Source: Pseudomonas sp. WS 5079 (GTDB taxonomy: Bacteria; Pseudomonadota; Gammaproteobacteria; Pseudomonadales; Pseudomonadaceae). Taken from it: a stretch of 64,000 bases of DNA. The notes beneath the pieces are model-generated. The model was not told the DNA's origin. It did no database searches and worked only from the letters and a program-made list of their open reading frames with translations. The position numbers were made by a program, and so were the translations under genes. This document shows positions 23,846 to 63,754 of the stretch, piece by piece. Position 1 is the first letter of the stretch. Each line of letters opens with the position of its first letter. The DNA lies in assembly GCF_012985465.1 (NCBI RefSeq), contig NZ_JAAQWN010000008.1, positions 248,001-312,000 of the forward strand, in the 5' to 3' direction.

Positions 23846-23869
23846 AACCGCAAATCCCGGGCACAAAAA

Positions 23870-24687: not shown

Positions 24688-24704
24688 ATTCAAGTTACTT
24701 GAAT
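24688..24704. promoter_or_regulatory. 17-bp palindromic operator (copy 1)
   Basis: ATTCAAGTTACTTGAAT is a perfect palindrome around a central T, 31 bases upstream of the first ABC gene. An identical palindrome with central A lies before the BMP operon at 30801. The XRE-cupin regulator encoded between them is the likely binder. Confidence 0.65.
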
Positions 24705-24734
24705 AACAATTTGAGGAATTCAAGGGGAATACCA

Positions 24735-25583: not shown

Positions 25584-25590
25584 GCCGCTG

Positions 25591-26250
25591 ATGATGAATG
25601 ATTTCAGCAGCCGTCTCGCGCTCTATTGGCCTGCCTTGATCGACGGTGCAACAACCACATTGTGGTTGTGCGCCATCGGCATGCTGCTGGGTTTCATTCT
25701 CGGCGTAGTAATTCATCTGATTGCCAATGGTCGCAGCCCTGCCGGCAGAGCATTCACCCGGGTGTATGTCAGTTTCTTTCGTGGCACGCCCATGCTGGCG
25801 CAGCTGCTGCTTCTGTTCTATCTCCCATCAGCCCTGGGCCTGGATGTGCCACCCATGGTGGCTGCTGCTGTAGCCCTAGCGCTGAACACGGCGGCTTATC
25901 AGTCGCAGATTCTGAGCAGCGGTTTCGCCGCAATCCCCAAGGGCCAGATGGAAGCGGCGGCCGTGTTTGCCATCGGCAAATACAACACGCTTTTTCATAT
26001 CCAACTGCCACAAGTGTTGCGCCTCACCTCACCCGCGCTGATCTCCGAGTTGATCGATGTGATCAAGGTTTCAGCCGTGGTTTCGGTCATTTCCATCACT
26101 GATTTGATGCGCGTCAGCCAGCAGCTGGTTTCGCAGACTTACCGCCCGCTTGAGGTGTATCTGGTGGCGGGCTTGTTTTATCTCGTGCTGACAAGCCTGT
26201 TGAGCGTGCTCGGCAGCCTGCTGGAACGTCGCTGGAAGGAGCTCAAGTGA
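25591..26250 (+). CDS. ABC permease, polar amino acid type (HisM/GlnP family)
   Basis: The gene begins at a double ATG (25591/25594) 7 bases after the binding-protein stop. The 219-residue membrane protein carries the ABC permease EAA loop as QMEAAAVFAIGKYNTLFHIQLPQ, and the typical N-terminal YVSFFRGTPMLAQLLLLFY. It should pair with the next gene product to form the channel. It ends one base into the next start. Confidence 0.9.
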   Translation: MMNDFSSRLALYWPALIDGATTTLWLCAIGMLLGFILGVVIHLIANGRSPAGRAFTRVYVSFFRGTPMLAQLLLLFYLPSALGLDVPPMVAAAVALALNTAAYQSQILSSGFAAIPKGQMEAAAVFAIGKYNTLFHIQLPQVLRLTSPALISELIDVIKVSAVVSVISITDLMRVSQQLVSQTYRPLEVYLVAGLFYLVLTSLLSVLGSLLERRWKELK

Positions 26251-26897
26251 TGCAAGAATTATTGAGTTATCTCCCGGATTTCGCCAATGCACTGCTTGTC
26301 ACGCTGGGTATTAGCCTGACTGCCGCTGCCATGGGCTTACTGCTGGGATTCGGGATCAACGCCTTGCGCATGGCGGCCCCAGGATTTGTAGCGATCTATC
26401 GCGTTTACGTGTGGCTTATTCGCGGAACACCTTTTCTCGCCCAACTCGCGATTATTTATTTCGGGCTGCCAGTCATCGGTCTACGGCTGGAAGCCGTCGA
26501 GGCAAGCATCCTCTCGCTGGCCTTATACAGCGCTGCTTATTTTGCTGAGCTGTTCCGCTCTGCCTGGGCCAGTGTGCCCAACGGTCAAGTAGAAGCAGCG
26601 CGGGTGCATGGCATTTCGCGCAGCCGGGTGTTCTGGCACATACAAGCGCCGCAAGCGCTGGCATTCGCCCTCCCGCTATTGGGCAATCAGGTGATCCTGA
26701 CCATCAAGGAAAGCGCCGTCACCTCGATTATTACCGTGCCAGAACTGACCATGACTGCCGGACGCATCGTATCCACCACCTTTTCCTACGTATTGCCGTA
26801 TGCCCTGCTGGTGTTGAGCTACTGGCTGCTGACCTCGTCGGTCGCAGCTGTAGCCAGCGCACTGGGGCGGCGCATGACACGCCATCTACGAGGCTGA
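26250..26897 (+). CDS. ABC permease, polar amino acid type, second subunit
   Basis: The ATG overlaps the preceding stop by one base. The 215-residue protein shows YVWLIRGTPFLAQLAIIYFG and the EAA loop QVEAARVHGISRSRVFWHI, plus the KESAVTSIITVPEL block common to these permeases. It forms the heteromeric membrane domain with the preceding permease. Confidence 0.9.
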   Translation: MQELLSYLPDFANALLVTLGISLTAAAMGLLLGFGINALRMAAPGFVAIYRVYVWLIRGTPFLAQLAIIYFGLPVIGLRLEAVEASILSLALYSAAYFAELFRSAWASVPNGQVEAARVHGISRSRVFWHIQAPQALAFALPLLGNQVILTIKESAVTSIITVPELTMTAGRIVSTTFSYVLPYALLVLSYWLLTSSVAAVASALGRRMTRHLRG

Positions 26898-26901
26898 ACA
26901 G

Positions 26902-27708
26902 ATGAATACCCTTCCGCTTCTCAACTTGCGTGGCGTTGGCAAATCCTATGGCTCGCACCGTGTGCTCAGTGAGTTTGACCTGAGCGTACAAGCCGGTGAA
27001 ATCGTGTCTTTGATCGGGCCTTCAGGATCAGGAAAAACCACCGCCCTGCGCTGTATGAATTTCCTTGAGCGCTATGACGAGGGAGAGATATGGATCGATG
27101 GTCAACTGCTGGGCTATAGCGGACCGGGCAGACGTGAAGCCGACCGCGACAGCGAAGCCAAGATCGATGAGGTGCGCAACCCGCTGTCCATGGTGTTCCA
27201 GCAATTCAATCTGTGGCCGCACATGACCGTGCGCGACAACGTCATGGCGCCTTTGGTACTCGGCAAGAAAATCGCCAAGGCCGAGGCGCGCAACCTGGCT
27301 GATCAGGCACTGGCACGGGTCGGCCTGAGCGCCAAGGCGGATGCGTACCCCGCTCGCCTCTCCGGCGGACAGCAGCAACGCGTCGGCATTGCCCGGGCAC
27401 TGGCAGTAAAACCGCGGTTGATGCTGCTCGACGAACCGACCTCGGCGCTGGACCCGGAATTGGTCGAGGAAGTACTGCAGGTCATTCGCAGCCTTGCGAA
27501 CGATGGCATGACCATGGTGATGGTGACCCATGAAATGAGCTTCGCTGCACAGATATCCAGTCAGGTAGTGTTTATGGAAGCAGGAAAAATTATTGAAACC
27601 GGTACTCCGCAGGCACTGTTTCAGGCACCAAAGACGGAACGCTTACAGCAGTTTCTCAGCCCCTGGTTTAACCGCAGCCTCACTCCACGCGTGCAGGTGA
27701 CCCCATGA
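26902..27708 (+). CDS. ABC transporter ATP-binding subunit, polar amino acid type
   Basis: 268 residues with Walker A GPSGSGKTT, Q-loop VFQQFNLWPHMTV, signature LSGGQQQRV, Walker B LMLLDEPTSALD and switch His in MVTHEMSFA. This is the energising subunit of the transporter encoded just upstream. A 15-residue insertion rich in charge (GPGRREADRDSEAKIDEVRN) lies between Walker A and the Q-loop, a feature shared in placement with the paralogue at 42544. Its stop overlaps the M20 hydrolase start by four bases. Confidence 0.93.
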   Translation: MNTLPLLNLRGVGKSYGSHRVLSEFDLSVQAGEIVSLIGPSGSGKTTALRCMNFLERYDEGEIWIDGQLLGYSGPGRREADRDSEAKIDEVRNPLSMVFQQFNLWPHMTVRDNVMAPLVLGKKIAKAEARNLADQALARVGLSAKADAYPARLSGGQQQRVGIARALAVKPRLMLLDEPTSALDPELVEEVLQVIRSLANDGMTMVMVTHEMSFAAQISSQVVFMEAGKIIETGTPQALFQAPKTERLQQFLSPWFNRSLTPRVQVTP

Positions 27709-28937
27709 TTGCCGATCAAGTGATGCAGGCCGTTTCATCGGAACGACTGCAGCGTTTGTTGGAGACCCTGGCAACCTTCGGGCCCGGCATCGATGGCGGA
27801 ATGAACCGTCAGGCGTTGTCCGAAGAAGACTTCCTGGCCCGCGCCTGGCTGATTGAAGAAGCCCGAAAACTGGACTGCAAAGTGTGGACCGACGCCAGCG
27901 CCAACCTGTTCATACGCCGCGAAGGCCGTGAGGACTTAACGCCAGTGATGACCGGGAGCCACGTCGACACCCAACCCACAGGCGGGAAGCTTGACGGCTG
28001 TTACGGGGTGATGGCCGGGCTTGAATGTCTGTATGCGTTGGCAGAACTCAACGTCAGCACCCGTCGCCCGATCGAAGTGGTGGTCTGGACTAACGAAGAA
28101 GGCAGCCGCTTCAGTCCAGGAGCGATGGGCTCCAGCGCCTACGTAGACCCGGCGCGACTGGAGACTTATCGAAACAACCTTGACGCTGCGGGTATCTCGG
28201 TAGGAGAGGCACTGGACGCTCACGCCCTGCGCTTTGCCGAACTGCCACAGCGCGAAAAAATCGCCACACACGCCTTTGTCGAGTTGCACATTGAGCAAGG
28301 CCCGATATTGGAGCAAGCCAATGTCCCGCTGGGAGTGGTTTCGGGTATTCAGGGCGTGCGCTGGTATCAAGTGCGCTGCAAGGGTGCTTCGGCACACGCA
28401 GGAACCACGCCGACGCACATGCGGCGCGATGCGTTGTTGCTCGCCATGGAATCCCTCGGCCGCATCGACGCGCTGGCCGAACAACTTGCCGGTGACGACA
28501 AGCGCCTGACATTCGGACGCTGGAACGTCTCGCCCAATGCAATCAACACGATTGCCGGTGAAGCAACCTTCAGCATCGACTTCCGCCACGCCGATCCGGC
28601 TGTACTCGAAGCCTTCGATAATGCCCTCAGTGCCTGCCTGCCTGCCGACGCCGAACTGACCAGCCTGTTCAGCCACAGCCCGACCGCGTTCGATCATCAG
28701 GTCATCAATGTGTTGGAGAACGCCTGCGACGCCACAGGACTGACTTGGCAATCGATACGTTCTGGCGCCTTCCACGACGCCATGTATCTGGCCGGGCACT
28801 GTCCGACAGCAATGCTTTTTGTACCCAGCCGGGACGGCATAAGCCACAACCCGAAGGAATTCACAGATCCCGCGCAATTGAAAGCAGGCGCCCAGGCATT
28901 GGCCTGGAGCCTGGTTGCACTTGCAGAACAACCCTGA
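27705..28937 (+). CDS. M20-family amidohydrolase (N-carbamoyl-amino acid hydrolase/allantoate type)
   Basis: 410 residues with the metal site of the hydantoinase/carbamoylase branch: GSHVDTQPTGGKLDG (His and bridging Asp), NEEGSRFSPGAMGSS (Glu pair), FVELHIEQGP and the late HDAMYLA. The central lid domain carries HAGTTPTHMRRDAL. Such enzymes hydrolyse N-carbamoyl or ureido groups to amino acid, CO2 and ammonia. It is translationally coupled to the ABC transporter, which would bring in its substrate, and is followed by a DUF1989 gene. Substrate cannot be told from sequence; allantoate, ureidoglycine, N-carbamoyl amino acids and N-carbamoylsarcosine are candidates. Confidence 0.88.
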   Translation: MIADQVMQAVSSERLQRLLETLATFGPGIDGGMNRQALSEEDFLARAWLIEEARKLDCKVWTDASANLFIRREGREDLTPVMTGSHVDTQPTGGKLDGCYGVMAGLECLYALAELNVSTRRPIEVVVWTNEEGSRFSPGAMGSSAYVDPARLETYRNNLDAAGISVGEALDAHALRFAELPQREKIATHAFVELHIEQGPILEQANVPLGVVSGIQGVRWYQVRCKGASAHAGTTPTHMRRDALLLAMESLGRIDALAEQLAGDDKRLTFGRWNVSPNAINTIAGEATFSIDFRHADPAVLEAFDNALSACLPADAELTSLFSHSPTAFDHQVINVLENACDATGLTWQSIRSGAFHDAMYLAGHCPTAMLFVPSRDGISHNPKEFTDPAQLKAGAQALAWSLVALAEQP

Positions 28938-28953
28938 ACCCATAGGAACTCAT

Positions 28954-29664
28954 ATGACCAATATTACCCATAGCCACGACTATCCGGCCTGCTGCCAGCC
29001 CGACAATGGCTCCTCGCTGGGCATCAACGCCACGTTGAAAGAACCGATCTCGGCCGATGGCACTCCAGTCCTGGGCGAAAGTTACACAGTGCCTGCCCGT
29101 TGTGGCCGCGCCGTCCGCCTGAAAGCTGGCCAGGTCATCAAAATCGTCAACACTCACGGCACCCAGGTATGTGACACCTGGTTGTTCAACAGCGAAGACA
29201 TGAGCGAATTCCTATCGATGGAACATGCTCGCGCGCATTGCAACAGCATCATTCCCAAGACTGGCGACGCGCTGTTCAGTAACCGCCGCCGCACGATCGG
29301 TACCTTGTTGACCGACACCTCACCCGGCATTCACGACACCTTGATGGCTGCGTGTGACCTGCACCGCTACACCAACCTGGGAGTCGAGGGTTATCACGAC
29401 AGCTGCGCGGATAACATGCGTCTGGCCTTGCAGGCTATTGGTCTGCGCTCCCATGAAGTTCCGCAGCCTTTCAATCTGTGGATGAACATTCCGGTCAAGC
29501 CTGATTACACTGTTGAATGGCTGCCGCCGGTATCCACAGCCGGGGACTACGTTGAAATCCGTGCAGACATGGACGTTATCGTGGTGATGTCAGCCTGCCC
29601 TCAGGACATTGTGCCTATCAATGACCTTAACCCGGTGGAAGTTACCTTCTCGGTTCACGGCTGA
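28954..29664 (+). CDS. DUF1989 protein (urea carboxylase-associated/CgdAB family)
   Basis: The start at 28954 has AGGAA 5 bases before it and gives 236 residues. The body (VPARCGRAVRLKAGQVIKIV, then GTQVCDTWLF, YHDSCADNMRLAL, DYVEIRADMDVIVVMSACPQ) is a DUF1989 domain. Two members of this family, CgdA and CgdB, form carboxyguanidine deiminase in the guanidine-degradation pathway, so a deiminase or amidohydrolase on a guanidino/ureido group is plausible here. The usual partner subunit and urea/guanidine carboxylase are absent from this window, so the reaction must differ or be completed elsewhere. Confidence 0.8.
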   Translation: MTNITHSHDYPACCQPDNGSSLGINATLKEPISADGTPVLGESYTVPARCGRAVRLKAGQVIKIVNTHGTQVCDTWLFNSEDMSEFLSMEHARAHCNSIIPKTGDALFSNRRRTIGTLLTDTSPGIHDTLMAACDLHRYTNLGVEGYHDSCADNMRLALQAIGLRSHEVPQPFNLWMNIPVKPDYTVEWLPPVSTAGDYVEIRADMDVIVVMSACPQDIVPINDLNPVEVTFSVHG

Positions 29665-36825: not shown

Positions 36826-37845
36826 ATGGCGAAACTCCACGCGTCCCTCCACCCTGTCGCAGGGCGTTCGGTTGATGAACATCGGCCATTGAAAACCGTT
36901 GGTTTTTTGGTCATACCAAATTTCACCACTATCGGCTTCGCTTCCGCTGTGGAAACCTTGCGCATAGCCAATATGGCGGCGCGTCAAACGATGTTCCGCA
37001 CGGTTATCATCGCTGCCAACATGGAGCCGGTCATGGCCAGCAACGGCATGCGCCTGCTGCCCGACTACACCATCACCGATGCACCAAAGCTGGATATGCT
37101 GTTCGTTGTCGGATCAAACCCTATCGTCTCTAATCACAGCAGCCTACCGCTACTCAACTGGCTCCGTAAGCTGGCGCATGATCAAGTGCCCCTAGGCGGG
37201 ATTTGCACTGGAAGCCACTTATTGGCGCGCGCAAACTTACTTAAGGGTTATCGCTGCACTATTCACTGGGAAGACATCGAAGCTTTGAAGGAGCGTTTCC
37301 CGGGCATCATTATTTCCAATCAGTTGTTTGAGCTTGATCGCGATCGCTACACGTGCTCAGGCGGCGTGGCCTCTATGGACATGACACTGCAGTTGATAGC
37401 GCGCGAACCCGGTGGTCGCGAAATTGCAGCCCATGCAGCCGAGTTGCTACTGTGTGATCGGGTCCGGGGCGCGCAGGAACAGCAGCGTGTGCCATTACGA
37501 CAGAAACTGGGCACCTCTCAACCTAAGCTCAGCCAGATGGTGGCAATCATGGAGGCCAATCTTGAGGAGCCGTTGGGCCTTGAGGAGCTCGCGCGATTGA
37601 ACGAAGTGTCGGTACGGCACCTAGAGCGGTTGTTTCACAAGCACCTACAACGCACGCCGAGTCAGTATTACCTGGAACTGCGCCTGTCGCGAGCGAGACA
37701 ATTGCTACTGCGCAGCGAGTCGCAAGTTCGTGATATCGCCCTCGCTTGCGGCTTTATCTCCCCTGCGCACTTCTCCAAATGCTACAGCCGTTTCTTCGGG
37801 ATATCACCCCTCGGCGAACGCAAGCAAGTGGCTGCGATGCATTAA
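36826..37845 (+). CDS. cahR: GlxA-type AraC regulator, CahR-like (creatine responsive)
   Basis: The ATG follows GAGGAG. The 339 residues consist of a DJ-1/PfpI-like ligand domain (TVGFLVIPNFTTIGFASAVE, GGICTGSHLLARANLL) and a C-terminal AraC helix-turn-helix pair (LEELARLNEVSVRHLERLFH, VRDIALACGFISPAHFSKCY). In P. putida KT2440 the regulator of creatine use, CahR, is of this type and lies with an MHS transporter and the creatinase gene; the same three genes stand together here. It probably activates the creatinase gene in response to creatine. The family also includes GbdR, CdhR and ArgR, so the assignment rests on context. Confidence 0.8.
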   Translation: MAKLHASLHPVAGRSVDEHRPLKTVGFLVIPNFTTIGFASAVETLRIANMAARQTMFRTVIIAANMEPVMASNGMRLLPDYTITDAPKLDMLFVVGSNPIVSNHSSLPLLNWLRKLAHDQVPLGGICTGSHLLARANLLKGYRCTIHWEDIEALKERFPGIIISNQLFELDRDRYTCSGGVASMDMTLQLIAREPGGREIAAHAAELLLCDRVRGAQEQQRVPLRQKLGTSQPKLSQMVAIMEANLEEPLGLEELARLNEVSVRHLERLFHKHLQRTPSQYYLELRLSRARQLLLRSESQVRDIALACGFISPAHFSKCYSRFFGISPLGERKQVAAMH

Positions 37846-37934: not shown

Positions 37935-39275
37935 TCAGTCTTGCAAAGCTTTATGCGCAGTCTCGCGGCTCGCCAGCATGGCAATTAACGCTACAGCGGC
38001 GGCCGCCAGCAGATACCAGGCTGGTGCCATTTTATTACCGGTCAGCTGAATCAGCCAAGTCGCAATAAATGGCGCCGTACCGCCGAACACCGCATTGGCG
38101 ATATTGAAGCTGAAGGCAAAACCACTGAAGCGCACGCGGGTCGGGAATATCTCGGCGAGGAAGCACGGCAAGGTGCCGTCGTTCATCGCCAGGATCGCGC
38201 CGAAGGCTATCTGGATCATCAGGATGACGATCAGCGGCTGGTTGTTCAACATGCCGAACAGCGGCCATGTAAGCGCCAGAAACAGCACCGATGCGGTCAG
38301 CAACATGGCCTTGCGTCCGAACAGATCCGACAGCTTGCCCATCAGGAAAATCAGCCCGATGTAGGTCGCCAACGACACAGTCGACGCCATGAACGAATCG
38401 CTCTCGCTCATGCCCATCTCGGTAGACAGGTAGGTCGGCATATAACTGAGCAACAGGTAGAACGCTACCGCATTCAAGCATGTCACACCGATGCCGATAA
38501 TCACGCTACGCCGGTGTAAGGTCAAAAGTTCGCGAACCGGAGCGTGGGTCGCGCATTCCTTGGCCTCGAGGCGTTTTTCCATCTCTAGAAATTTGGGTGT
38601 GTCTTGCAAACTCATACGGATGTAACGCCCGACTAGACCGAACGGCGCCGCCAGCAGGAAGGGCAAACGCCAGCCCCAACTGTGCAGATCCTCAACGCTC
38701 ATCCACGAATGCAAACCGGCCACGAACACTGCGCCGAACAACAAGCCGGCAGCAGTACTCGCCGGCACGATGCTGGTATACAAACCGCGTTTACCCTCAG
38801 GGGCATACTCGGCCAGAAAGGCTGATGCCCCAGCGTACTCTCCGGAAGCGGAAAAGCCCTGAAACAAGCGGATTAGTAACAACAGAGCGGGTGCCCACAG
38901 ACCAATATGGTTGTAAGTCGGCAGGATACCGATGCAGAAGGTCGAGATTGACATGATCAGAATCGACCAGGACAACGCGCTGCGCCGCCCGTACTTGTCT
39001 CCGAAGTGACCCCAGACTAGCCCTCCCAGCGGGCGAACGAAAAACGACAGCGCAAACACCGCGAAGGTTGCCAGCAGCCCGGTCGCCTTGTCGGTCTGCG
39101 GAAAAAACGTCAGTGCAATCACGGTTGCCAAATAGCCGTAGGCCGCGTAGTCGAACCATTCGACGAAGTTGCCCATGAAGCTGGCACTGGCCGCGCGCCG
39201 CAGTGCCTTGCGCTCGGAAATCCGTTCAAGCTGCTGTTCCAGGATCGGCGTCAGACTTGCGTTTTGGGTGCTCAT
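37935..39275 (-). CDS. MHS-family MFS transporter, probable creatine permease
   Basis: 446 residues and 12 membrane helices, with the MHS family marks ASFMGNFVEWFDYAAYGYLA, GGLVWGHFGDKYGRRSAL and RLFQGFSASGEYAGASAFLA. It is a proton symporter for a small charged solute. Its position between the CahR-like regulator and the creatinase gene suggests creatine. The start codon overlaps the stop of a 41-codon upstream gene (ATGA), and GGAGG lies 6 bases before it, so translation is coupled. Confidence 0.88.
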   Translation of the reverse strand: MSTQNASLTPILEQQLERISERKALRRAASASFMGNFVEWFDYAAYGYLATVIALTFFPQTDKATGLLATFAVFALSFFVRPLGGLVWGHFGDKYGRRSALSWSILIMSISTFCIGILPTYNHIGLWAPALLLLIRLFQGFSASGEYAGASAFLAEYAPEGKRGLYTSIVPASTAAGLLFGAVFVAGLHSWMSVEDLHSWGWRLPFLLAAPFGLVGRYIRMSLQDTPKFLEMEKRLEAKECATHAPVRELLTLHRRSVIIGIGVTCLNAVAFYLLLSYMPTYLSTEMGMSESDSFMASTVSLATYIGLIFLMGKLSDLFGRKAMLLTASVLFLALTWPLFGMLNNQPLIVILMIQIAFGAILAMNDGTLPCFLAEIFPTRVRFSGFAFSFNIANAVFGGTAPFIATWLIQLTGNKMAPAWYLLAAAAVALIAMLASRETAHKALQD

Positions 39276-39572: not shown

Positions 39573-40784
39573 TCACTTCTTGATGATGTTATGTTCCGGG
39601 CCATACGGGAATTTGGTGATGTTTTCCCCGCCCTGCTCGTTGACGATCAATATGTCATGTTCGCGGTAACCGCCCGCGCCCGGAAGGCCTTCAGGCAGCA
39701 TGATCATCGGTTCAATGGAAACCACCATCCCCGGCTCCAGTACCGTGTCAATGTCTTCGCGCAGTTCCAACCCAGCTTCGCGGCCGTAGTAATGGCTCAG
39801 TGTACCGAAGGAGTGGCCGTAGCCGAAGGTGCGGTATTGCAGCAGATCGTGCTCAAGGAAAATCTCGTTGAGTTGCAGAGCGATATCGCAGCAGCGCATG
39901 CCCGGCTTGATTAGTTTCAGGCCGGCCTCGTGCACTTTAACGTTCACTTCCCACAAACGGAGATGCTCGTCGGAGCAATGGTCCAGGAACATTGTGCGTT
40001 CCAGCGCAGTGTAATAACCAGCGATCATCGGGAAGCAATTGAGGCTCAGGATGTCGCCCTTGTTAACCTTGCGCGAGGTCACCGGGTTATGAGCACCGTC
40101 GGTGTTGATGCCAGACTGGAACCAGGTCCAAGTGTCCATCAGTTCGGAGTCCGGGAAGGTGCGGGCAATTTCGCGCACCATCGCCTGGGTAGCGTGCAAG
40201 GCGACTTCATACTCCGGCACCTGATCACGCAAGGCTTCCACGACTGCTGCGCCACCGATGTCTGCCACGCGGGCACCATGACGGATGATTTCATGCTCTT
40301 CGGCGGATTTGATCATGCGCATACGCATGCAAGGTGCACCGATATCCACCAGTTCGGCCTGCGGGTAACGACTGGCAAGTTTGTCGCGATTGAGCAGGTT
40401 CAGATGGTCAAATTCGATGCCAATGCGTCCAGCTTTCGGCAAAGCTTGCTGAATCGCGACGAAATAATTATCGCGCTGCCAGTCTGTGTAAATGATGTTC
40501 TCAGTGCCCACGGTGCGGCGCCAAGGCTGACCGCCATCGATGTTGGCGCTGATGGTAACGGCACTGTCTTGGGTAACGACCAGCGCGTACGGGCGACCGA
40601 AAGAGCAAAACAGGAAATCGCTGTAGTAGTTGATGTTGTGATAGGACGTGAATACTGCCGCATCAATATTGTTTTGCGCTAGATACGCTCGCAATTTGGC
40701 CTGTCGATTGGCGTACTCCTGAACCGAAAACGTCGATTTTACTTTTTCGCCGTTCTTGATCTGGATCGTTTTAGGCATTTGCAT
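39573..40784 (-). CDS. creA: Creatinase (creatine amidinohydrolase)
   Basis: Hydrolyses creatine to sarcosine and urea (EC 3.5.3.3). The start at 40784 (AAGGAT upstream) gives MQMPKTIQIKNGEKVKSTFS and 403 residues, exactly the length of the P. putida enzyme; longer frames are spurious. Counting from this start, the known active-site residues all fall in register: Arg64 (SFGRPY), His232 (DGAHNP), Glu262 (ALERT), Arg335 (YYGREAG) and Glu358 (SIEPM). The pita-bread fold of the M24 family needs no metal in creatinase. It lies with a CahR-like regulator and an MHS transporter. Nothing suggests loss of function. Confidence 0.97.
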   Translation of the reverse strand: MQMPKTIQIKNGEKVKSTFSVQEYANRQAKLRAYLAQNNIDAAVFTSYHNINYYSDFLFCSFGRPYALVVTQDSAVTISANIDGGQPWRRTVGTENIIYTDWQRDNYFVAIQQALPKAGRIGIEFDHLNLLNRDKLASRYPQAELVDIGAPCMRMRMIKSAEEHEIIRHGARVADIGGAAVVEALRDQVPEYEVALHATQAMVREIARTFPDSELMDTWTWFQSGINTDGAHNPVTSRKVNKGDILSLNCFPMIAGYYTALERTMFLDHCSDEHLRLWEVNVKVHEAGLKLIKPGMRCCDIALQLNEIFLEHDLLQYRTFGYGHSFGTLSHYYGREAGLELREDIDTVLEPGMVVSIEPMIMLPEGLPGAGGYREHDILIVNEQGGENITKFPYGPEHNIIKK

Positions 40785-41783: not shown

Positions 41784-42383
41784 TTAAGTTCGGACCTGAG
41801 GGATCGTACCACTTGCGCCTAGTTTAACTGCCAGATTCTTTTCAACTTCTAACATCATGTATCCCCCATACTCTTGTGCTAGAAATTCGCACATGAGCCC
41901 TTGAACAGCTTGGCGGCCAATACATGTTAGGCGTCCACGGTCGACACAGAATGGCGCGGTGACAAACTTGATGTCTTTGTAAATACCGAGGTGCTGGGAG
42001 TATCCTATTTCAGGAAGGCTGCAACGAAAACCATTTAGCGCGCCACTCATTGCCAACAACCAGCCCGCACCGCCGAAGGCCCCCAGATCAACAGGCTCGG
42101 TGCTCCAATGGTCCAGCCGCTGCCTGATATCATCGTAATCCGTATCGGAATGTATATTCTCGGCGGTACACAGGATCAACACATTAAATAACTGCGCATG
42201 GTCCAGCCGAGTAGTTTCAGTAGCTATGCCGCTGCTTGCGTTAAGCGTGCCCCCTTCTAAACTGAGAATTTGCCATTCACAAAGCTGAAAGCCTGCTACA
42301 TGATTAGCGGATCGTAGTGGCTGTATAGCATTCGCTAATGAATATAGGTCAAACCCCTCAGTGAGCAAGAACCCAACTTTCAC
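41784..42383 (-). CDS. Lone DJ-1/PfpI-like domain protein (GlxA regulator without HTH)
   Basis: I start at the GTG at 42383 because GGAGGTGA lies 10 bases before it; longer frames exist. The 199 residues (VKVGFLLTEGFDLYSLANAI, then LGAFGGAGWLLAMSGALNGF) match the ligand domain of GlxA/CdhR-type regulators. The protein stops after LAVKLGASGTIPQVRT, just where the linker to the AraC helix-turn-helix would begin. It may be a truncated regulator, a free-standing sensor or an enzyme of the DJ-1 family. It is downstream of the second ABC operon on the same strand but 160 bases away. Confidence 0.7.
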   Translation of the reverse strand: MKVGFLLTEGFDLYSLANAIQPLRSANHVAGFQLCEWQILSLEGGTLNASSGIATETTRLDHAQLFNVLILCTAENIHSDTDYDDIRQRLDHWSTEPVDLGAFGGAGWLLAMSGALNGFRCSLPEIGYSQHLGIYKDIKFVTAPFCVDRGRLTCIGRQAVQGLMCEFLAQEYGGYMMLEVEKNLAVKLGASGTIPQVRT

Positions 42384-42543
42384 AATATCCAAGTCACCTC
42401 CAGGAAATCTAGGCACTTTTCTGCATCCTCGGAACCATGCTCAAACGCGACACCGCACAATATAACATTTAGCAACTAATATTTCTGGAAAGAGATCAGA
42501 CGATAGCTTGATCACAAAGTAAGACCATTGATGTAAATGCAAT

Positions 42544-43341
42544 TCAATTTACACTGCCACCATTCTGCCGCTCATTCCATGACGTAAGGAACTGAAGTAA
42601 GCGAGGGCTGGTAGGAGCCCCAAATATCTGGCTAGGAGGTCCCTGTTCCTCTACGCGACCATCAGCGAGAAAGACGACTTTATCCGATACCTTTGCCGCG
42701 AATCCCATCTCATGCGTCACGATGACTAATGTCATACCTTCACTCGCCACGTCCTTAATGACATTGAGCACCTCTCCTACTAATTCGGGGTCTAAAGCTG
42801 AGGTAGGCTCGTCAAAGAGCATAATGCTGGGTTCCATCGCCAACGCTCTGGCTATTGCCACCCGTTGCTGTTGACCTCCGGAGAGTTGACTCGGGTAGCT
42901 TGAAGCCTTATGAGCGAGACCGACCTTTTCAAGCTGGGCCTCCGCCATCGCATATGCCGCAAGTTTCGGCATTTTTTTTACAAGCCTCAAGGGGGTGGCA
43001 ATATTATCAAGAACACGCATATGTGGCCATAGATTGAACTGTTGAAAAACCATGCACACCTTGCGAAGCGAACTCTGGATTATGTTTTCGGGCAATTGGT
43101 ACAAACCTCCAGTAACAGAGCTTCCGTAACCAATAAGGCGGTTATTTACCAGTACCTCACCACCGTCATATTCTTCAAGAAAATTTATACATCTCAGCAA
43201 CGTTGATTTACCAGATCCAGAACCTCCGATGATGCTAACCACCTCGCCTTTCGCGACGGTGAGTGAAATGCCTTTGAGCACTTCATGTTGACCATAGCTT
43301 TTTTGCAAATCACGAATTTCTATAGCGTATGAATTGGACAT
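42544..43341 (-). CDS. ABC transporter ATP-binding subunit, polar amino acid type (second system)
   Basis: 265 residues with Walker A GGSGSGKST, Q-loop VFQQFNLWPHMRV, signature LSGGQQQRV, Walker B IMLFDEPTSALD and the switch His in VTHEMGFA. It is the last gene of a four-gene minus-strand operon (binding protein, two permeases, ATPase) next to a creatinase-like gene. Like the first system it carries an insertion between Walker A and the Q-loop (GYGSSVTGGLYQLPENIIQS). Confidence 0.92.
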   Translation of the reverse strand: MSNSYAIEIRDLQKSYGQHEVLKGISLTVAKGEVVSIIGGSGSGKSTLLRCINFLEEYDGGEVLVNNRLIGYGSSVTGGLYQLPENIIQSSLRKVCMVFQQFNLWPHMRVLDNIATPLRLVKKMPKLAAYAMAEAQLEKVGLAHKASSYPSQLSGGQQQRVAIARALAMEPSIMLFDEPTSALDPELVGEVLNVIKDVASEGMTLVIVTHEMGFAAKVSDKVVFLADGRVEEQGPPSQIFGAPTSPRLLQFLTSWNERQNGGSVN

Positions 43342-43349
43342 GCATAACC

Positions 43350-44015
43350 TCAGCGCTGCAGATAATTTTTAAAATACCGCTCAGCTCTGGAACCAATGCC
43401 AGCTAGTACAATGGCAATAGCCCAATACGTCAACGCCAATATCGTATATGGCTCCAGCATGGAGTAGCTCTGAACAGCAATTGTCATCGCCACGTTAGTT
43501 AACTCAGCGACTGTTATAATCGACAAAACAGACGACTCCTTTAGTAGAATTATCGTCTGCCCGACGACTGCTGGTACGCACCGAGCCATCATCTGCGGCC
43601 ACAGCACAACGCGAAATACCTGGGTACCTGTCAGTCCCAGATCTCTTGCAGCTTCGAGTTGACCTTGTGGAATTGACTCACGTCCGGCACGAAATATCTC
43701 TGCAAAATAGGCTGCACCATACAACCCTAGACCTATCAATCCTACGGTTTCTGCAGTCCATTCAATACCTATGTATGGTCCCCCATAGAAAACCAAAAAT
43801 AATTGTAGAAGAAGCGGCGTACCCCGAAAAACATTTAAATACAGCTGGTATAAAAAGGCAAATGGCTTGTTATCAGGCTTGTATAAACTCTGTAACACCA
43901 AGCCCAAAACCATCCCCAGCGCAATTCCCCCGATACTCATTTTCAGCGTAACGCAAATCCCAGCTAGGATTGAGCCACCGTACTCGTCAAACAGACCAAT
44001 GCCGATCAAAGGCAC
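43350..44015 (-). CDS. ABC permease, polar amino acid type (second system)
   Basis: 221 residues with YLNVFRGTPLLLQLFLVFYG, the EAA loop QLEAARDLGLTGTQVFRV and KESSVLSIITVAELTNVA. Three bases separate it from the preceding permease and eight from the ATPase gene, so the operon is compact. AT-rich codon use sets this operon apart from the first transporter. Confidence 0.9.
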   Translation of the reverse strand: MPLIGIGLFDEYGGSILAGICVTLKMSIGGIALGMVLGLVLQSLYKPDNKPFAFLYQLYLNVFRGTPLLLQLFLVFYGGPYIGIEWTAETVGLIGLGLYGAAYFAEIFRAGRESIPQGQLEAARDLGLTGTQVFRVVLWPQMMARCVPAVVGQTIILLKESSVLSIITVAELTNVAMTIAVQSYSMLEPYTILALTYWAIAIVLAGIGSRAERYFKNYLQR

Positions 44016-44018
44016 CTC

Positions 44019-44669
44019 CTACGCAATTTTTAGCCTAGCTTCCAGCCAGTTACCCACCCGTCCAGTCGCCATTGTTAGAGCCAAGTAAAGCAGCCCGGTC
44101 ACGATAAAGAATTCGATGGGGCGGTAGGTAGTTGAGGCAAGGGTTTGAGCTGTCCTCATAAGCTCATGTACAGCGACAGCAGAAATCAATGAGGAATTTT
44201 TAATGATATCGATAGTTTCGTTTACAAGAGCAGGCAACATGGCCTTCAACACTTGAGGTGTTTTAATATAAATCAATGCTTGCCAGCGCGACAGACCAAG
44301 ATCTCTGGCCGCCTCAGTTTGACCGTATGGCAGAAGCTGGAAACCGGAGCGCAATATTTCACCTTGGAAGGCTCCACTGTTCAAAGTTAATGCGACAATC
44401 GCGGCCGCCAGTGGAGGTAAACTTATTCCGATAGAAGGTAGTGCATAAAACACTAGAACAAGCTGTACCAACAAAGGCGTGCCTCGAAAGAAGCTTACAT
44501 AAACAGCGCAAAACATCCGGAGCCACCTACGCTCACTCATCAGACCAAGACAAACAGCCCAGCCCATCACCAGCCCTAACGCAATAGCGGTCAAAGATAC
44601 CCATAGTGTGGTAAATAGGCCTGCCAAAAGCTGTGGCAAATAGTGGGCTGTAGCTGTTAAATCAAACAT
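44019..44669 (-). CDS. ABC permease, polar amino acid type (second system)
   Basis: 216 residues with YVSFFRGTPLLVQLVLVFYA and the EAA loop QTEAARDLGLSRWQALIYI. It pairs with the next permease to make the channel. The C-terminus (VTGLLYLALTMATGRVGNWL) is typical of the family. Confidence 0.9.
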   Translation of the reverse strand: MFDLTATAHYLPQLLAGLFTTLWVSLTAIALGLVMGWAVCLGLMSERRWLRMFCAVYVSFFRGTPLLVQLVLVFYALPSIGISLPPLAAAIVALTLNSGAFQGEILRSGFQLLPYGQTEAARDLGLSRWQALIYIKTPQVLKAMLPALVNETIDIIKNSSLISAVAVHELMRTAQTLASTTYRPIEFFIVTGLLYLALTMATGRVGNWLEARLKIA

Positions 44670-44699: not shown

Positions 44700-45551
44700 T
44701 CAGTTTATCGGTGCTGGAACAGCATCAGTAGGTAGAGGCATTTCGAAGCCGAACCATTTGCGCTGAAGTTTGGCTAACTCACCGCTTGCGTTCAGCTTTG
44801 CAATACCGTCACTAAAGAATTTAACAAGAGAGGCGCTGTCAGCATCTTTACGACCGGCCCACGCATAGTATGTCGGCGGTCCGAAGGGAGGCTGTACAAT
44901 TTCAAATACATCTCCACGCTCCTTGATTAAAGGCGCGAGATTGGGTAGGGATTGAACGACTGCATCGACACGACGGGAGGCCAAAGCCGCATAAGCCTCA
45001 TTATAGTCCATAAATGCCTTGATTTCTTTCACGCCCGAGTTCTTCGTCGGCTGTAGTACAGTCCGCTCATACTCCTTGAGCACGTCGATTTGTGGTGCCC
45101 CGGCTTGACTTCCTACTACCATGCCAATCAAATCTTCGGCACTATTGATCCGGGCGTCTCCTTTACGCTTCAATACTGCCACACTAGCAGTGGAGAAAGG
45201 CAAGGTAAAAGCAAAACTTTCTGCGCGCGCCTTAGTTATAGTAAGTGACGTGGCTACGAAGTCGAATCTTTTGCTGGATAATCCAGGAAGTATGCCCTGA
45301 AATGGAACATCTAATTGTTTAAGTTTAACCCCGGGCAAATCAAGCATAATCGCGTCGAGTAAGTCTTTCCCGTACCCGACAATTTTACCGTCCTCGATCA
45401 TCTCAAAAGGCGCATAACGTGCTTCGGTTGCGACGACAATCTCGCCACGCCCCTTGATGTCAGAAAGTAAATCAGCCTTAGCCTCAACAGCTGCAAAGGA
45501 CACTAAAGTGCCAACTAACAATGGGGTCAGCAGCGAGTACAGTGGTCTCAT
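44700..45551 (-). CDS. ABC transporter periplasmic binding protein, family 3 (second system)
   Basis: The start at 45551 has AAAGGAT 8 bases before it and begins a signal peptide (MRPLYSLLTPLLVGTLVSFA ending VEAKA); 29 extra codons of a longer frame are rejected. The mature protein (DLLSDIKGRGEIVVATEARY, APFEMIEDGKIVGYGKDLLD) is closely related to the binding protein at 24735-25583. It probably binds a creatine-like or guanidino compound, judging by the M24 creatinase paralogue encoded across the divergent LysR gene (inference). Confidence 0.9.
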   Translation of the reverse strand: MRPLYSLLTPLLVGTLVSFAAVEAKADLLSDIKGRGEIVVATEARYAPFEMIEDGKIVGYGKDLLDAIMLDLPGVKLKQLDVPFQGILPGLSSKRFDFVATSLTITKARAESFAFTLPFSTASVAVLKRKGDARINSAEDLIGMVVGSQAGAPQIDVLKEYERTVLQPTKNSGVKEIKAFMDYNEAYAALASRRVDAVVQSLPNLAPLIKERGDVFEIVQPPFGPPTYYAWAGRKDADSASLVKFFSDGIAKLNASGELAKLQRKWFGFEMPLPTDAVPAPIN

Positions 45552-45660
45552 GACGCGATCCTTTCGATGAGTTACGAGTAGAAGTGGGCGAACCGGTTGG
45601 CGTTCACACAGCATGTCCACAACCGAAATCATGAACAAACGGCTATTTTTAACGTCGACT

Positions 45661-45677
45661 CATTAGGTTTACTAATG
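45661..45677. promoter_or_regulatory. LysR-type operator in the divergent promoter region
   Basis: CATTAG-GTTTA-CTAATG is a perfect inverted repeat with a 5-base spacer, midway between the divergent LysR gene and the ABC operon. Spacing and position fit a LysR recognition site that controls both. Confidence 0.55.
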
Positions 45678-45729: not shown

Positions 45730-46656
45730 ATGTCTCGTGCCCTACCTTCTCTTGAGGGATTGCGCTACTTCGATGCTGCTGCACGGCACTTGAGCTTCAC
45801 TCGCGCATCAAAAGACCTGTTCCTTACACAAAGCGCTGTAAGCCAGAAGATTCAAGCGCTTGAGCAGGAACTGGGCTATGAGCTTTTTTATCGCCTGCCT
45901 CGGGGTTTGAGGCTTACGCAACGCGGTGAACGCTTGCACGTCGGAGTCGACCAAGCGTTGAGGCTTTTAGGAATGACTTTGCACCAAATTGGAGATGAAG
46001 AGCTAAGTGGCACGCTAAAAGTGCGCGTTATGCCCTCCTTCGCTAGCAAGTGGTTGCTGCCGCGGATGCCATCCTTCAATCAAGCCTACCCTGGCATACA
46101 GTTGGAGGTAGAAGCGGATCTGAGTACCCCTAATTTCAATAGCGACGGCGTCGACTTGGCAATCAGCTGCGCTTGGACTGACAATGCCAAACTCTCTCAG
46201 CTACACCTATTCGATGACCTCGTTTATCCAGTAGCCAGCGCGGATTTGTTGGCACGAGTAGAAATCAAAGATTATGGTGATTTGTGCCAGACAATCTTGT
46301 TACATGACTCTATGCCTCACGCTGCCTACAGCACCAACTGGGACGCTTTTTTCTCCCGGCACAGCCGCTACGATATCAATACCCGTGGAGGCTGCTCATT
46401 TTCACGGGCAGACCTTGTGTTGCAGGCGGCTTGTGATGGTCAGGGGGTCGCGTTAATGCGGCATTCGCTGTGTGCAAAAGAGATAGCAAACGGTACCTTG
46501 GTCAGGCCGTTCCCTGAGGTAATGCAAGATGGCCAAGTATGGCTAGTGCACCCCAGCATTCATGAAGACCGCCCTCGGGTTCAGGCGCTAAAGAAGTGGA
46601 TCAAGAGCGAGGTGGAGCAGCATCTGTCGCAGCGGCGCTTGAACCTGGGCAGCTAG
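45730..46656 (+). CDS. LysR-family regulator (GcvA-like)
   Basis: The ATG has GGAG 9 bases upstream. N-terminal HTH LRYFDAAARHLSFTRASKDL, FLTQSAVSQKIQALEQELGY, then the substrate-binding domain (LKVRVMPSFASKWLLPRMPS onward). It is divergent from the second ABC operon and 114 bases before the creatinase-like gene, with a palindrome in the shared promoter region. It probably regulates both according to the imported compound. Confidence 0.9.
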   Translation: MSRALPSLEGLRYFDAAARHLSFTRASKDLFLTQSAVSQKIQALEQELGYELFYRLPRGLRLTQRGERLHVGVDQALRLLGMTLHQIGDEELSGTLKVRVMPSFASKWLLPRMPSFNQAYPGIQLEVEADLSTPNFNSDGVDLAISCAWTDNAKLSQLHLFDDLVYPVASADLLARVEIKDYGDLCQTILLHDSMPHAAYSTNWDAFFSRHSRYDINTRGGCSFSRADLVLQAACDGQGVALMRHSLCAKEIANGTLVRPFPEVMQDGQVWLVHPSIHEDRPRVQALKKWIKSEVEQHLSQRRLNLGS

Positions 46657-46770
46657 ATATCTGTCTCAGCCATAAGCTCTGCTAATAGTACGGAATTAAA
46701 AATCGTCATTTGTTCCTATTGGGCGTGAAGGAGATGCTACGCGCTGCCTTCACTAGACAGGAACCTCGGC

Positions 46771-47985
46771 ATGAGCATGCCTAATTACATTACACTTCAA
46801 AATGGACCTAAAACACGGTCTACTTTCAGTGTGAAGGAAATGTCCCGACGCCTTCAGCTGTTACGTCAGCATATGACCAGCACCAGTTTGGACGCCATTG
46901 TATTGAGTTCAATACACAACATAAACTATTTTGGCGACTTCCTCTTCTGCGAGTTTGGGCGTAGCTACGCATTAGTAGTAACGCACGATAGCTCCATTCT
47001 TATCACAACCAATATTGATGGAGGCCAAGGTTATCGCCGCAGCTGGGGAGATAATCTTGTCTATACAGACTGGGAGCGTGATAACTATTTCGTTGCTCTA
47101 CGTAAAGCAATCCCATTAAAATCTCGCCGTATAGGCGTAGAGTTCGATCATCTATCCCTCGATAAATTTCGCAAGATCGAAGCCGCTCTTGATAATGCGG
47201 AACTGGTTGACATCGCGCCTGGCACCAACCGTATTCGTATGTTCAAGTCAATCGAAGAAATCCAGCTGATTCGTATTGGTGCAGCGGTAGCGGACGTAGG
47301 AGGTGCGGCTTGTTTAGACGCGATATCTGAAGGTGTGCCTGAGTACGAGGTAGCCATTGCGGGGACGTCTGCAATGACTAGGGAAATTGCTAGGCGTATG
47401 CCTTACTGCGAGTTACGCGACACGTGGACGTGGTTTCAATCCGGTCTGAACACCGATGGTGCACATAATCCCGTTACCAGTCGTCGAGTTAAATCCGGGG
47501 ATATACTTTCAGTTAACTGTTTTCCGATGATCGCAGGCTATTTTTCTTCATTAGAACGAACGGCTTTTTTGGGTGAGCCAAATGCCCAGCAGCGTCGCAT
47601 ATGGGAAATCAACTGCAAAGTACACCAACGCGGGCAGGAGATAATCAGACCAGGGGTTCGTTGCTGCGATATTGCGGCAGAGCTAAATGAAATCTATCTA
47701 CAAGCGGATCTGCTCAAATATCGCACATTTGGTTACGGTCACTCAAATGGAGTCCTTTGCCACTATTACGGACGGGAGGCTGGGCTCGAATTGCGCGAAG
47801 ATATCGAGACGGTGCTAGAACCGGGCATGGTGGTATCGATGACACCAATGGTAATGCTACCGGAAGGTACGCCAGGTGCTGGGGGATATCGAGAGGGCAG
47901 CGTGCTCATTGTAAATGACAGGGGTGCGGAAAATATTACGAAATTAGGCTCTGGGCCTGAGCACAATATAATCAATCTTCCCTAG
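46771..47985 (+). CDS. Creatinase-like M24 hydrolase with altered active site
   Basis: 404 residues, alignable over the full length with the creatinase at 39573-40784. Arg64 (EFGRSY), His232 (DGAHNP), Glu262 (SLERT) and Arg335 (YYGREAG) are kept. Position 358 is Thr (SMTPM) where creatinase has the substrate-binding Glu, so the guanidinium pocket is changed. It probably hydrolyses a different guanidino or amidino compound, or is a weaker creatinase. AGGAAC lies 7 bases before the start. Codon use is much more AT-rich than in the true creatinase, pointing to separate acquisition, not recent duplication. Confidence 0.88.
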   Translation: MSMPNYITLQNGPKTRSTFSVKEMSRRLQLLRQHMTSTSLDAIVLSSIHNINYFGDFLFCEFGRSYALVVTHDSSILITTNIDGGQGYRRSWGDNLVYTDWERDNYFVALRKAIPLKSRRIGVEFDHLSLDKFRKIEAALDNAELVDIAPGTNRIRMFKSIEEIQLIRIGAAVADVGGAACLDAISEGVPEYEVAIAGTSAMTREIARRMPYCELRDTWTWFQSGLNTDGAHNPVTSRRVKSGDILSVNCFPMIAGYFSSLERTAFLGEPNAQQRRIWEINCKVHQRGQEIIRPGVRCCDIAAELNEIYLQADLLKYRTFGYGHSNGVLCHYYGREAGLELREDIETVLEPGMVVSMTPMVMLPEGTPGAGGYREGSVLIVNDRGAENITKLGSGPEHNIINLP

Positions 47986-48305
47986 CAATTAACGTCCAGA
48001 GCGGTTCAATTGATCAAGAAGTTCCAAACATCAAGAATCTGCATCATTGATTAATGATATCTGCACCTCTGGGTCATGTGGAGGATACCTAATCAGAACC
48101 CGAATTTTTGGTTAAGAGACCGAGATTGTGGCTCTGGATTGCGTAAAAACATCGATTGCTACTCGGGTATTGCTTTCTGGTAGCACTCGAAATTAAATGA
48201 CCTCACCGATTTGGTCGATGGAGGAAACAGCTAGCATGAATCGCTAGTTTGAATATTGATAGTCGGTGAGAGGCCTATCCATTAGGAATGGAGGTCCGTC
48301 ACGCT
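47986..48305. other. Junction between cargo and ICE backbone
   Basis: About 320 bases with no gene. I looked for a tRNA 3' end or a copy of the att core and found none, so the cargo appears to lie inside the same element as the backbone. No clear terminator follows the M24 gene. Confidence 0.4.
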
Positions 48306-62831: not shown

Positions 62832-63398
62832 CTAGGCTCTGTACGTAAAGTATTGTCGCAAGCACCGCATAGCGCAGGCCAATGAGACCATCGCCGCAAA
62901 ACTTGTTGCGAGCTTGTCGAAGCGCGTCACGATGCGACGGTTCTCCTTCAGCCAGCCAAACATGCGTTCGATGATGTTGCGCTGCCGATATTTGGGGCGA
63001 TCAAAAAGTCGAGGCAATCCTGGCTTGGTTTTGCGCTTCATGCTTCGCAACGGAATGACTGGCTGCATGCGATAACGATCACAATACTGGCGCAGCGCTT
63101 CAGCGTCGTAACCCTTGTCAGCCAGCAACCAGCGGCAACGCTTGCGTGGGCGACCGCGCAGGCTGGGTATGCAAGCCTGATCGAGTAGCGGTTGGGCATA
63201 GGCTATATCGCTGGCTTGTCCGCCTGACAACAGGAAACGCAGAGGCACACCATTGGCGTCGCACAGCATGTGAATCTTGGTCGTCAGGCCACCCCGGCTG
63301 CGCCCGAGCGCGTGGTCTTGCGGTTCTTCAAATCCCCTTTTTTCCCGGCACCTGATGAGGCCCGGGTTGCTCGTACGGCAGTGGAGTCGATCATCCAT
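62832..63398 (-). CDS. IS5-family transposase, second frame (OrfB)
   Basis: Read by -1 frameshift from OrfA; its own ATG is probably not used. It contains HALGRSRGGLTTKIHMLCDA, the second Asp in WLLADKGYDAEAL and the Glu in NIIERMFGWLKENRRI, completing the DDE triad. Its stop codon TAG is supplied by the CTAG target duplication, outside the element proper. Confidence 0.9.
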   Translation of the reverse strand: MDDRLHCRTSNPGLIRCREKRGFEEPQDHALGRSRGGLTTKIHMLCDANGVPLRFLLSGGQASDIAYAQPLLDQACIPSLRGRPRKRCRWLLADKGYDAEALRQYCDRYRMQPVIPLRSMKRKTKPGLPRLFDRPKYRQRNIIERMFGWLKENRRIVTRFDKLATSFAAMVSLACAMRCLRQYFTYRA

Positions 63399-63754
63399 GT
63401 TTCCAAGTCAATCAAACCCTGCTCATTCAATCGGATATGAAGACGCTTGAGCATCTGATCAAAAGCTCCGCAATCACGCCATCCCCGGAACCGTTGATAG
63501 ATCGTTGACCAAGGGCCGAATCGTTCGGGCATGTCTCGCCAGGCTGCGCCAGAGCAAAGCACCCAGAGAATACCGTTTAGCATCAGGCGATCATCGGCCC
63601 GAGGGCGCCCGGTGCGCTGATTTTTGGTGAAGATATCTGCAACCAGATCCCAGGCTGCGTCGGGGAGTTCATACCGCTTTGCCATCTTGGCCTCCTGGCT
63701 TTAATGGCGGTGTATTTTACAGAAAATCGTATTTCTTGGGTTTACGTACAGAGC
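62836..63754 (-). mobile_element. IS5-family insertion sequence (919 bp)
   Basis: Ends are GCTCTGTACGTAAA inverted repeats (left 62836, right 63754), flanked by CTAG target duplications (62832-62835 and 63755-63758). Two overlapping minus-strand frames code for a DDE transposase. The YTAR target, length and layout fit the IS5 family (IS427-like group). The intact ends and perfect duplication point to a recent insertion. Confidence 0.9.
63284..63685 (-). CDS. IS5-family transposase, first frame (OrfA)
   Basis: The ATG at 63685 has AGGAGG upstream. 133 residues with the DUF4096-type N-terminal domain (AKRYELPDAAWDLVADIFTK, LMLNGILWVLCSGAAWRDMP) and the first catalytic Asp in TWMIDSTAVRA. At the A6 run (63338-63343) near GAGKKGDLKN a -1 shift would carry ribosomes into the second frame to make the full transposase. 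Confidence 0.9.
   Translation of the reverse strand: MAKRYELPDAAWDLVADIFTKNQRTGRPRADDRLMLNGILWVLCSGAAWRDMPERFGPWSTIYQRFRGWRDCGAFDQMLKRLHIRLNEQGLIDLETWMIDSTAVRATRASSGAGKKGDLKNRKTTRSGAAGVA

Follow-up and report, generated by a model that had tools for sequence, protein, structure and literature searches.

A creatinase paralogue of Pseudomonas altered at seven otherwise invariant sites

The gene at 46771 to 47985 encodes a creatinase paralogue that, judged by its residues, is no longer an ordinary creatinase. It lies in the window, the 64,000-nucleotide stretch of Pseudomonas sp. WS 5079 that was analyzed, and all positions are those of this stretch. Seven substitutions at sites that do not vary elsewhere, mostly next to active-site residues, give good sequence support for the loss of ordinary creatinase specificity. 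Several otherwise unvarying residues of the presumed guanidinium pocket are gone, so the protein has probably stopped being a creatinase. Our first choice, held tentatively, is that it may be a metal-free M24 hydrolase of creatinase descent with a rebuilt substrate site. We favor this reading, with a noncatalytic paralogue close behind; decay and continued creatinase activity are less likely. The features are listed in Table 1.

Table 1. Features of the window that bear on the paralogue
Feature	Coordinates	Strand	Basis or remark
Mobile island carrying all listed genes	23858-64000, extends beyond the window	.	Identity contrast with P. paracarnis
GbdR-family regulator	36826-37845	+	NCBIfam GbdR, 379 bits (below the cut-off of 480)
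MFS transporter beside creatinase	37935-39275	-	Pfam
Normal creatinase, 403 aa, same island	39573-40784	-	Homology, residue survey
GbdR-like N-terminal sensor domain, 210 aa, without DNA-binding domain	41784-42416	-	NCBIfam GbdR and alignment
ABC importer ATPase	42544-43341	-	Pfam ABC_tran
ABC importer permease 2	43350-44015	-	Synteny and homology
ABC importer permease 1	44019-44669	-	Synteny and homology
Family 3 solute-binding protein of the importer	44700-45638	-	Pfam SBP_bac_3
Inverted repeat CATTAG-N5-CTAATG, putative LysR operator O1	45661-45677	.	Perfect match, in the gap between importer operon and LysR
LysR-type regulator	45730-46656	+	Pfam HTH_1, LysR_substrate; codirectional with the paralogue
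Second, imperfect repeat, putative operator O2	46671-46687	.	Before the paralogue; two mismatches
Creatinase paralogue, T358 type, 404 aa	46771-47985, stop included	+	ATG start; ORF list, homology, residue survey

Identity and retained residues

The open reading frame was exactly as first read, on the + strand with an ATG start and its stop codon included. The P. putida creatinase (1chm) aligned to paralogue residues 3-401 with an E value of 1.3e-167. Two other structures matched over nearly the whole length, 7yto (E 3.8e-157) and 1kp0 (E 3.8e-148). Pfam found PF00557 and PF01321, the M24 domain and the creatinase N-terminal domain, as in a two-domain pita-bread fold. Creatinase is an M24 member that works without a metal, hydrolyzes creatine to sarcosine and urea, and is a clinical reagent. 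The source genome contained two creatinase-type matches, the paralogue and the normal creatinase, which were 63% identical across residues 1-402.

The paralogue retains Phe62, Arg64, His232, Glu262, His324, Arg335, and Glu375. Residue numbers are its own and agree with those of the creatinase residues named in the sequence-only reading. That reading had Arg64, His232, Glu262, and Arg335 kept and Glu358 replaced by Thr, and the full-length alignment with the window's normal creatinase confirmed this. The five residues expected of a creatinase at positions 62, 64, 232, 262, and 335 are all present in the paralogue. The same holds for 191 other relatives, except that Arg335 is found in 190 (one has His). 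Phe62 and Arg64 are reportedly contributed by the partner subunit, and Glu358 and His376 are said to stand at the guanidinium end. We take Arg335 and Arg64 of the paralogue to form the carboxylate end of the substrate site, and His232 and Glu262 to be the catalytic pair of creatinase.

Changes at invariant sites

Relatives were collected from genome contigs, whole genomes, and plasmids. The 204 matching rows gave 194 distinct sequences after removal of two short matches and identical copies. Outside this set are G061, G353, G091, the normal creatinase of G105, G1139, and G1159. Three of the 194 sequences, from four Pseudomonas genomes, are of the T type: that of the window (identical in P. paracarnis V5/DAB/2/5), that of P. 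baetica 25P2F9, and that of genome G139. The other 191 span Pseudomonadota, Bacillota, and MAGs of other phyla.

Residue 358 was Thr in all three T-type sequences and Glu in all 191 others. A survey of this residue had been proposed from the sequence, and the result (Thr in 0 of 191 others) means that the Thr is not a chance variant. It is conserved in all T copies, but these comprise three distinct sequences that are 96.5-98.3% identical to one another. Positions 258, 326, 376, and 377 followed the same pattern, with Phe, Asn, Gly, and Ser in the three T-type sequences and Tyr, Phe, His, and Asp in the 191 others. The paralogue has none of Tyr258, Phe326, His376, and Asp377 of creatinase.

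There were 86 sites invariant in the 191 others, and the paralogue is altered at seven of them: M153N, Y258F, A260S, F326N, E358T, H376G, and D377S. All but E358T are additional to the earlier note. Each of the seven altered states is common to every T copy. When the 191 sequences were scored by leaving each out in turn, the runner-up had three such deviations and the mean was 0.13, versus seven in the T type. Two base changes are required for 5 of the 7 changes, compared with 11 of all 36 changes on the stem, the seven being counted among them. The T type also has Glu61, adjoining Phe62, which is found in these 3 of the 194 sequences only and at a variable site. The G139 copy is altered at a further invariant site, Asp147. 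The entropy of sites varying among T copies did not differ clearly from that of the rest (P = 0.09).

One other sequence, L152 (genome G142), is creatinase-like with R335H. Apart from the T type, it alone among the 194 distinct sequences departs at any of the eleven core positions that were checked.

Location of the changes and structural models

Clustering was gauged by sequence distance and by positions equivalent to metal ligands. Seven core residues were used (62, 64, 232, 262, 324, 335, and 375). With position 358 excluded, 5 of the 6 changes lay within 4 residues of the core, versus 24 of 79 invariant sites (hypergeometric P = 0.009). Windows of 2, 3, and 5 residues gave P values of 0.01-0.04 on the strictly invariant sites; the proximity windows were picked after the changes had been seen. 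On a looser set of 97%-conserved sites the result was borderline only (P = 0.06-0.17).

In the alignment, D209, D220, H284, E313, and E327 of the P. furiosus prolidase pair with paralogue positions 249, 260, 324, 358, and 376. We take these five prolidase residues to be its metal ligands. The positions hold Asn, Ala, His, Glu, and His in the 191 others and Asn, Ser, His, Thr, and Gly in the T type. Three of the seven changes fall on them (P = 0.003; P = 0.024 without 358). The paralogue thus has N249, S260, H324, T358, and G376 in place of the Asp, Asp, His, Glu, and Glu of an M24 metalloenzyme. No acidic ligand was regained, so reversion to a metalloenzyme is unlikely.

AlphaFold2 models of the T type and the normal creatinase were built from the same 41 sequences. 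The predicted T-type structure keeps the creatinase fold (TM 0.96 to 1chm). Its mean pLDDT was 87.3, versus 90.7 for the normal creatinase. The blocks 321-330 and 331-340 scored 60 and 46 in the T type and 81 and 76 in the normal creatinase. The lower confidence of this active-site loop in the T model may be caused in part by mismatch between the query and its alignment.

LysR/ABC-importer module

The sequence-only reading had given the gene its own divergent LysR regulator. A LysR gene is present; it is codirectional with the paralogue, and the divergent part is the ABC operon. In the proposed survey of neighboring ABC genes, the same module was found with a normal creatinase site in two Pseudomonas loci and three Klebsiella plasmids. 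These sister modules are from P. mendocina EF27 (L006), a Pseudomonas MAG (L005), and the plasmids L111-L113. In the loci read, the ABC operon is divergent from LysR, and the creatinase-type gene lies downstream of LysR. The window has this layout and the repeats, the second of them imperfect. All five sister-module enzymes keep the normal creatinase site.

(a) LysR regulator and repeats. The LysR protein is 71-72% identical to those of the two Pseudomonas sister modules and 60% identical to that of Klebsiella. Both repeats are perfect or have one mismatch in L005, L006, and Klebsiella L111. O2 of the window aligns with CATTAG-N5-CTAATG in L005 and L006 and with a one-mismatch copy in L111; its two mismatches, taken alone, are within chance expectation. 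The exact form ATTAG-N5-CTAAT was found in 14 of 215 loci. Thirteen of these are all the loci that hold this module region, and one is another locus.

(b) Binding protein. The solute-binding protein is 80-81% identical to those of the two Pseudomonas sister modules and 71% identical to that of Klebsiella. Translation probably begins at an ATG within the open reading frame, near 45551. In the alignment, the T-module and sister binding proteins have the same motifs in the stretches that presumably face the ligand. The residue after the Gln of the QSL motif is Ser in all nine aligned binding proteins, one of which is the window's second. The paired position in five structure domains is Asp in four and Glu in one, and we take the Asp to bind the alpha-amino group. 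A Ser at this position would fit a ligand that, like creatine, lacks a free alpha-amino group. The pocket motifs are shared with modules of normal creatinase site, so the imported compound is probably unchanged. The kept motifs thus appear to argue against a simple switch of imported substrate.

(c) GbdR-like sensor domain. The protein at 41784-42416 matched NCBIfam GbdR at model positions 16-192 of 365 with 89 bits, below the cut-off of 480. It occupies the place, after the ATPase, that an EamA-type transporter has in the sister modules. The EamA gene is annotated in the plasmids, has a weak TIGR00950 match in L006, and was recognized by eye from the translation in L005. The sensor domain has no helix-turn-helix. 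It is present in the T modules compared, with dN/dS values of 0.23-0.30.

The G+C content of the T module is 48%, versus 56-57% on both sides within the island. This offset suggests that the module entered the island from elsewhere.

Evolution and selection

The tree of 64 rows recovered the T type with 100/100 support and placed it as the sister group of the P. mendocina EF27 and Pseudomonas MAG enzymes (99/89). The Klebsiella plasmid enzyme joined these two clades (100/98), and the whole group was separate from the normal Pseudomonas creatinases. The T-type gene arose within a LysR/ABC-importer/creatinase module whose other members, among those read, keep the normal site.

The stem length was 0.55 for the T type and 0.13 for the sister clade. 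With Klebsiella as outgroup, the creatinase gene had 44 unique changes in the T type versus 17 in L005 (chi2 = 12.0), and 45 versus 21 with L006 as the sister (chi2 = 8.7). The counts for T versus sister were 18 and 12 for the solute-binding protein, 19 and 16 for LysR, 20 and 10 for permease 1, 17 and 9 for permease 2, and 22 and 13 for the ATPase. None of these five was individually significant, and all tilted toward an excess in T. Significant acceleration was confined to the creatinase gene among the six module genes.

Most comparisons of living T copies showed purifying selection. Between the window and P. baetica paralogues the dN/dS was 0.087, with 7 amino-acid and 27 third-position differences. 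It was 0.14 between the window and G139 and 0.45 between P. baetica and G139, the last from small numbers (8 amino-acid changes among 15 base differences). The normal creatinase gave 0.033 between the window and G139. Internal stops were absent in all four T copies.

Distribution

The T type was found in 4 of 398 Pseudomonas genomes and in 3 of 293 relatives. It was not found beyond its own genome among 369 genomes of the class and 398 of the phylum, and the viral contigs searched held none. The paralogue was matched by 420 of 72,556 plasmid records, of which three were read. None of the 420 matched at 80% identity or more. Among the matches listed, identity reached 68.6% at full length and 70.4% in a partial alignment. 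By genus, the plasmid matches included 264 Klebsiella and 11 Raoultella records, with 68-70% identity among the matches listed. All three Klebsiella plasmids read (L111-L113) carry the LysR/ABC/creatinase module and were typed as conjugative. A megablast search of E. coli genomes did not detect the Klebsiella module. No published account of a T-type creatinase variant was recognizable in the literature searched, from titles and the opening parts of abstracts.

Mobile island and neighboring genes

The left end of the island lies near 23858, just after kdpE. Except for one insertion on each side, the island matched P. paracarnis at 99.4-100% identity in the stretches compared, whereas the chromosomal stretches compared were 75-87% identical, most of them 81-87%. 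The kdp stretch tested had no match above 73% in P. paracarnis. The contrast suggests that the island was recently moved between species with both creatinase-type genes. By its sequence it looks like a recently transferred ICE that has creatine genes as cargo. In three other genomes that also have the neighboring ICE-type genes, homology starts at 48185-48196.

Several insertions were observed. P. baetica has a 6.8-kb insert with a transposase-like open reading frame exactly at window position 41268/41269, and the homology with G139 is interrupted between 40984 and 41269. Window positions 62836-63754, a transposase-bearing stretch (DDE_Tnp_1), are missing in P. paracarnis, whose copy of the island carries a separate insert at the point corresponding to window position 58540.

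(a) Normal creatinase and neighbors. A normal creatinase was present in all four genomes with the T type. P. mendocina EF27 has a normal creatinase (89% identical to that of the window) and the sister module. In the Pseudomonas MAG, the sister-module gene is the only creatinase-type gene found. The source genome encodes a sarcosine oxidase beta subunit, a urease alpha subunit, and a creatininase-family protein, all above curated cut-offs. In Corynebacterium glutamicum, PMC8864220 describes an MFS protein, CreT, that is required for growth on creatine and has homologues adjoining creatinase genes. By analogy, the MFS transporter of the window is possibly a creatine importer. The GbdR-family regulator is possibly a CahR-type creatine regulator.

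(b) M20/DUF1989 cluster. The importer's binding protein had been described as related to that of a first importer. The relative is encoded at 24699-25583 (55% identical), away from the creatinase and within an M20/DUF1989 gene cluster. This cluster (24699-29664) encodes a family 3 ABC importer together with an M20 hydrolase of the carbamoylase/allantoate type and a UAAP2-related DUF1989 protein. The sister creatinase module of L005 adjoins a cluster whose binding protein and ATPase are 82-84% identical to those of the window cluster; the M20 and DUF1989 genes of the L005 cluster were recognized by eye. The window cluster could provide a pathway for a guanidino or ureido acid.

Proposed function and alternatives

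If the paralogue is an active hydrolase, LysR would sense the imported compound. It would activate the importer and the paralogue through the CATTAG-N5-CTAATG repeats as putative operators. The paralogue would clamp the carboxylate of an N-substituted glycine or a similar acid, and the His232/Glu262 machinery would cleave a C-N bond of that acid. The distal group would no longer be a bare guanidinium and could be ureido, acyl, or a substituted guanidine. It could also be a guanidinium that is differently placed and held by Glu61 of the partner chain. Creatine would be handled by the normal creatinase of the same island. Stated in full, a metal-free M24 hydrolase with a substrate so far unassigned in the family, its guanidinium cage dismantled and its carboxylate clamp and His/Glu machinery kept, is conceivable and slightly more doubtful than the general form. 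In the boldest form, the paralogue may form a mixed dimer with the neighboring creatinase in which the chains complete each other's site.

An active hydrolase is consistent with the clustering of the seven invariant-site changes near the core and at metal-ligand-equivalent positions, and with 5 of the 7 requiring two base changes. The acceleration of the creatinase gene (chi2 = 12.0), the T stem of 0.55 versus 0.13, and the dN/dS values of the window copy against the other two distinct ones (0.087 and 0.14) point the same way. So do the kept creatinase fold and the putative operators at the same places as in the sister modules. However, loss of catalysis would leave similar traces. The binding protein has the pocket motifs of the normal-site modules, and the importer genes tilt the same way in the rate test. 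The P. baetica and G139 comparison gives 0.45, and loop 321-340 is predicted at much lower confidence. The proximity windows are post hoc, with borderline P values of 0.06-0.17 on the looser site set, and the two mismatches of O2 are attainable by chance. A new specificity had been held likely from the sequence. The loss of the ordinary specificity is well borne out by the sequence; a new substrate is possible, but the evidence fits loss of catalysis about equally well.

The paralogue might, with appreciable though lesser probability, have lost catalysis and taken on a ligand-binding, regulatory, or subunit role. It could, for instance, pair with the normal creatinase in a mixed dimer, Phe62 and Arg64 being supplied in trans. 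Glu358, His376, Tyr258, and Asp377 are all lost, the importer pocket motifs are unchanged, and each of the four T-type genomes has a normal creatinase. The active-site loop has low confidence compared with the normal creatinase control, and the neighboring GbdR-like protein likewise lacks an output domain. There is a precedent in the metformin hydrolase alpha/beta pair, in which conserved metal ligands are in alpha only, according to PMC11399263. However, His232, Glu262, Arg64, Arg335, Phe62, His324, and Glu375 are all kept, although by hand calculation a random draw of seven of the 86 sites would miss all six kept residues in that set about 59% of the time. The changes are also grouped near the active site. 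In P. mendocina EF27, a normal creatinase coexists with a sister module whose site is intact, so a second creatinase alone does not free the paralogue.

It is unlikely that the gene is decaying after arrival beside a functional creatinase. The fast T stem, the dN/dS of 0.45 between P. baetica and G139 (small numbers), and the altered invariant Asp147 in G139 would fit decay. Against it, the four copies have no internal stop, the window and P. baetica copies give 0.087, the seven changed states are common to all copies, and the putative operators are present. Simple decay was held unlikely on the dN/dS, the intact frames, and the putative operators.

It is improbable that the protein is still a creatinase with altered kinetics, in which Glu61 of the partner chain would replace Glu358. 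Glu61 is found in the T type only (3 of 194), and the rest of the module is conserved, binding protein included. However, Glu358, His376, Phe326, Tyr258, and Asp377 are invariant in the 191 others across phyla.

A return to an M24 metalloenzyme is very improbable and was rejected: three changes fall on metal-ligand-equivalent positions, but the five residues N249, S260, H324, T358, and G376 in the prolidase alignment include no regained acidic ligand.

Comparison with known systems

None of the altered pocket positions varies across the other 191 distinct relatives examined. A naturally occurring variant with these positions rebuilt, together with sister genes that retain the former pocket and an importer and putative operator common to both, makes a compact test of substrate change or of pseudoenzyme origin. 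Should the paralogue be active, a mobile island would gain a pathway for degrading a guanidino, ureido, or N-acyl compound.

(a) Creatinase. The paralogue has the same fold as creatinase (creatine amidinohydrolase, EC 3.5.3.3; 1chm, 7yto, and 1kp0) and is 58-61% identical to it by fold alignment. It shares Arg64/Arg335 and the catalytic His232/Glu262. It differs by the seven substitutions M153N, Y258F, A260S, F326N, E358T, H376G, and D377S and by Glu61.

(b) Sister modules. The modules L006, L005, and L111-L113 have the gene order, binding-protein motifs, and putative operator of the T module. They differ in their normal creatinase site and in an EamA-type transporter instead of the GbdR-like sensor domain.

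(c) Other M24 proteins. Ectoine hydrolase DoeA/EutD (6twj and 6twk) is an M24 member with a nonpeptide substrate, like creatinase, and is 18% identical to the paralogue by fold alignment. The paralogue scored 94 and 47 bits against the NCBIfam ectoine hydrolase models, below their cut-offs of 575 and 613. PA2G4/Ebp1 is a nonpeptidase M24 member termed a pseudoenzyme in PMC3888471. It is likened to the paralogue by description and is unlike it in being related to methionine aminopeptidase and eukaryotic.
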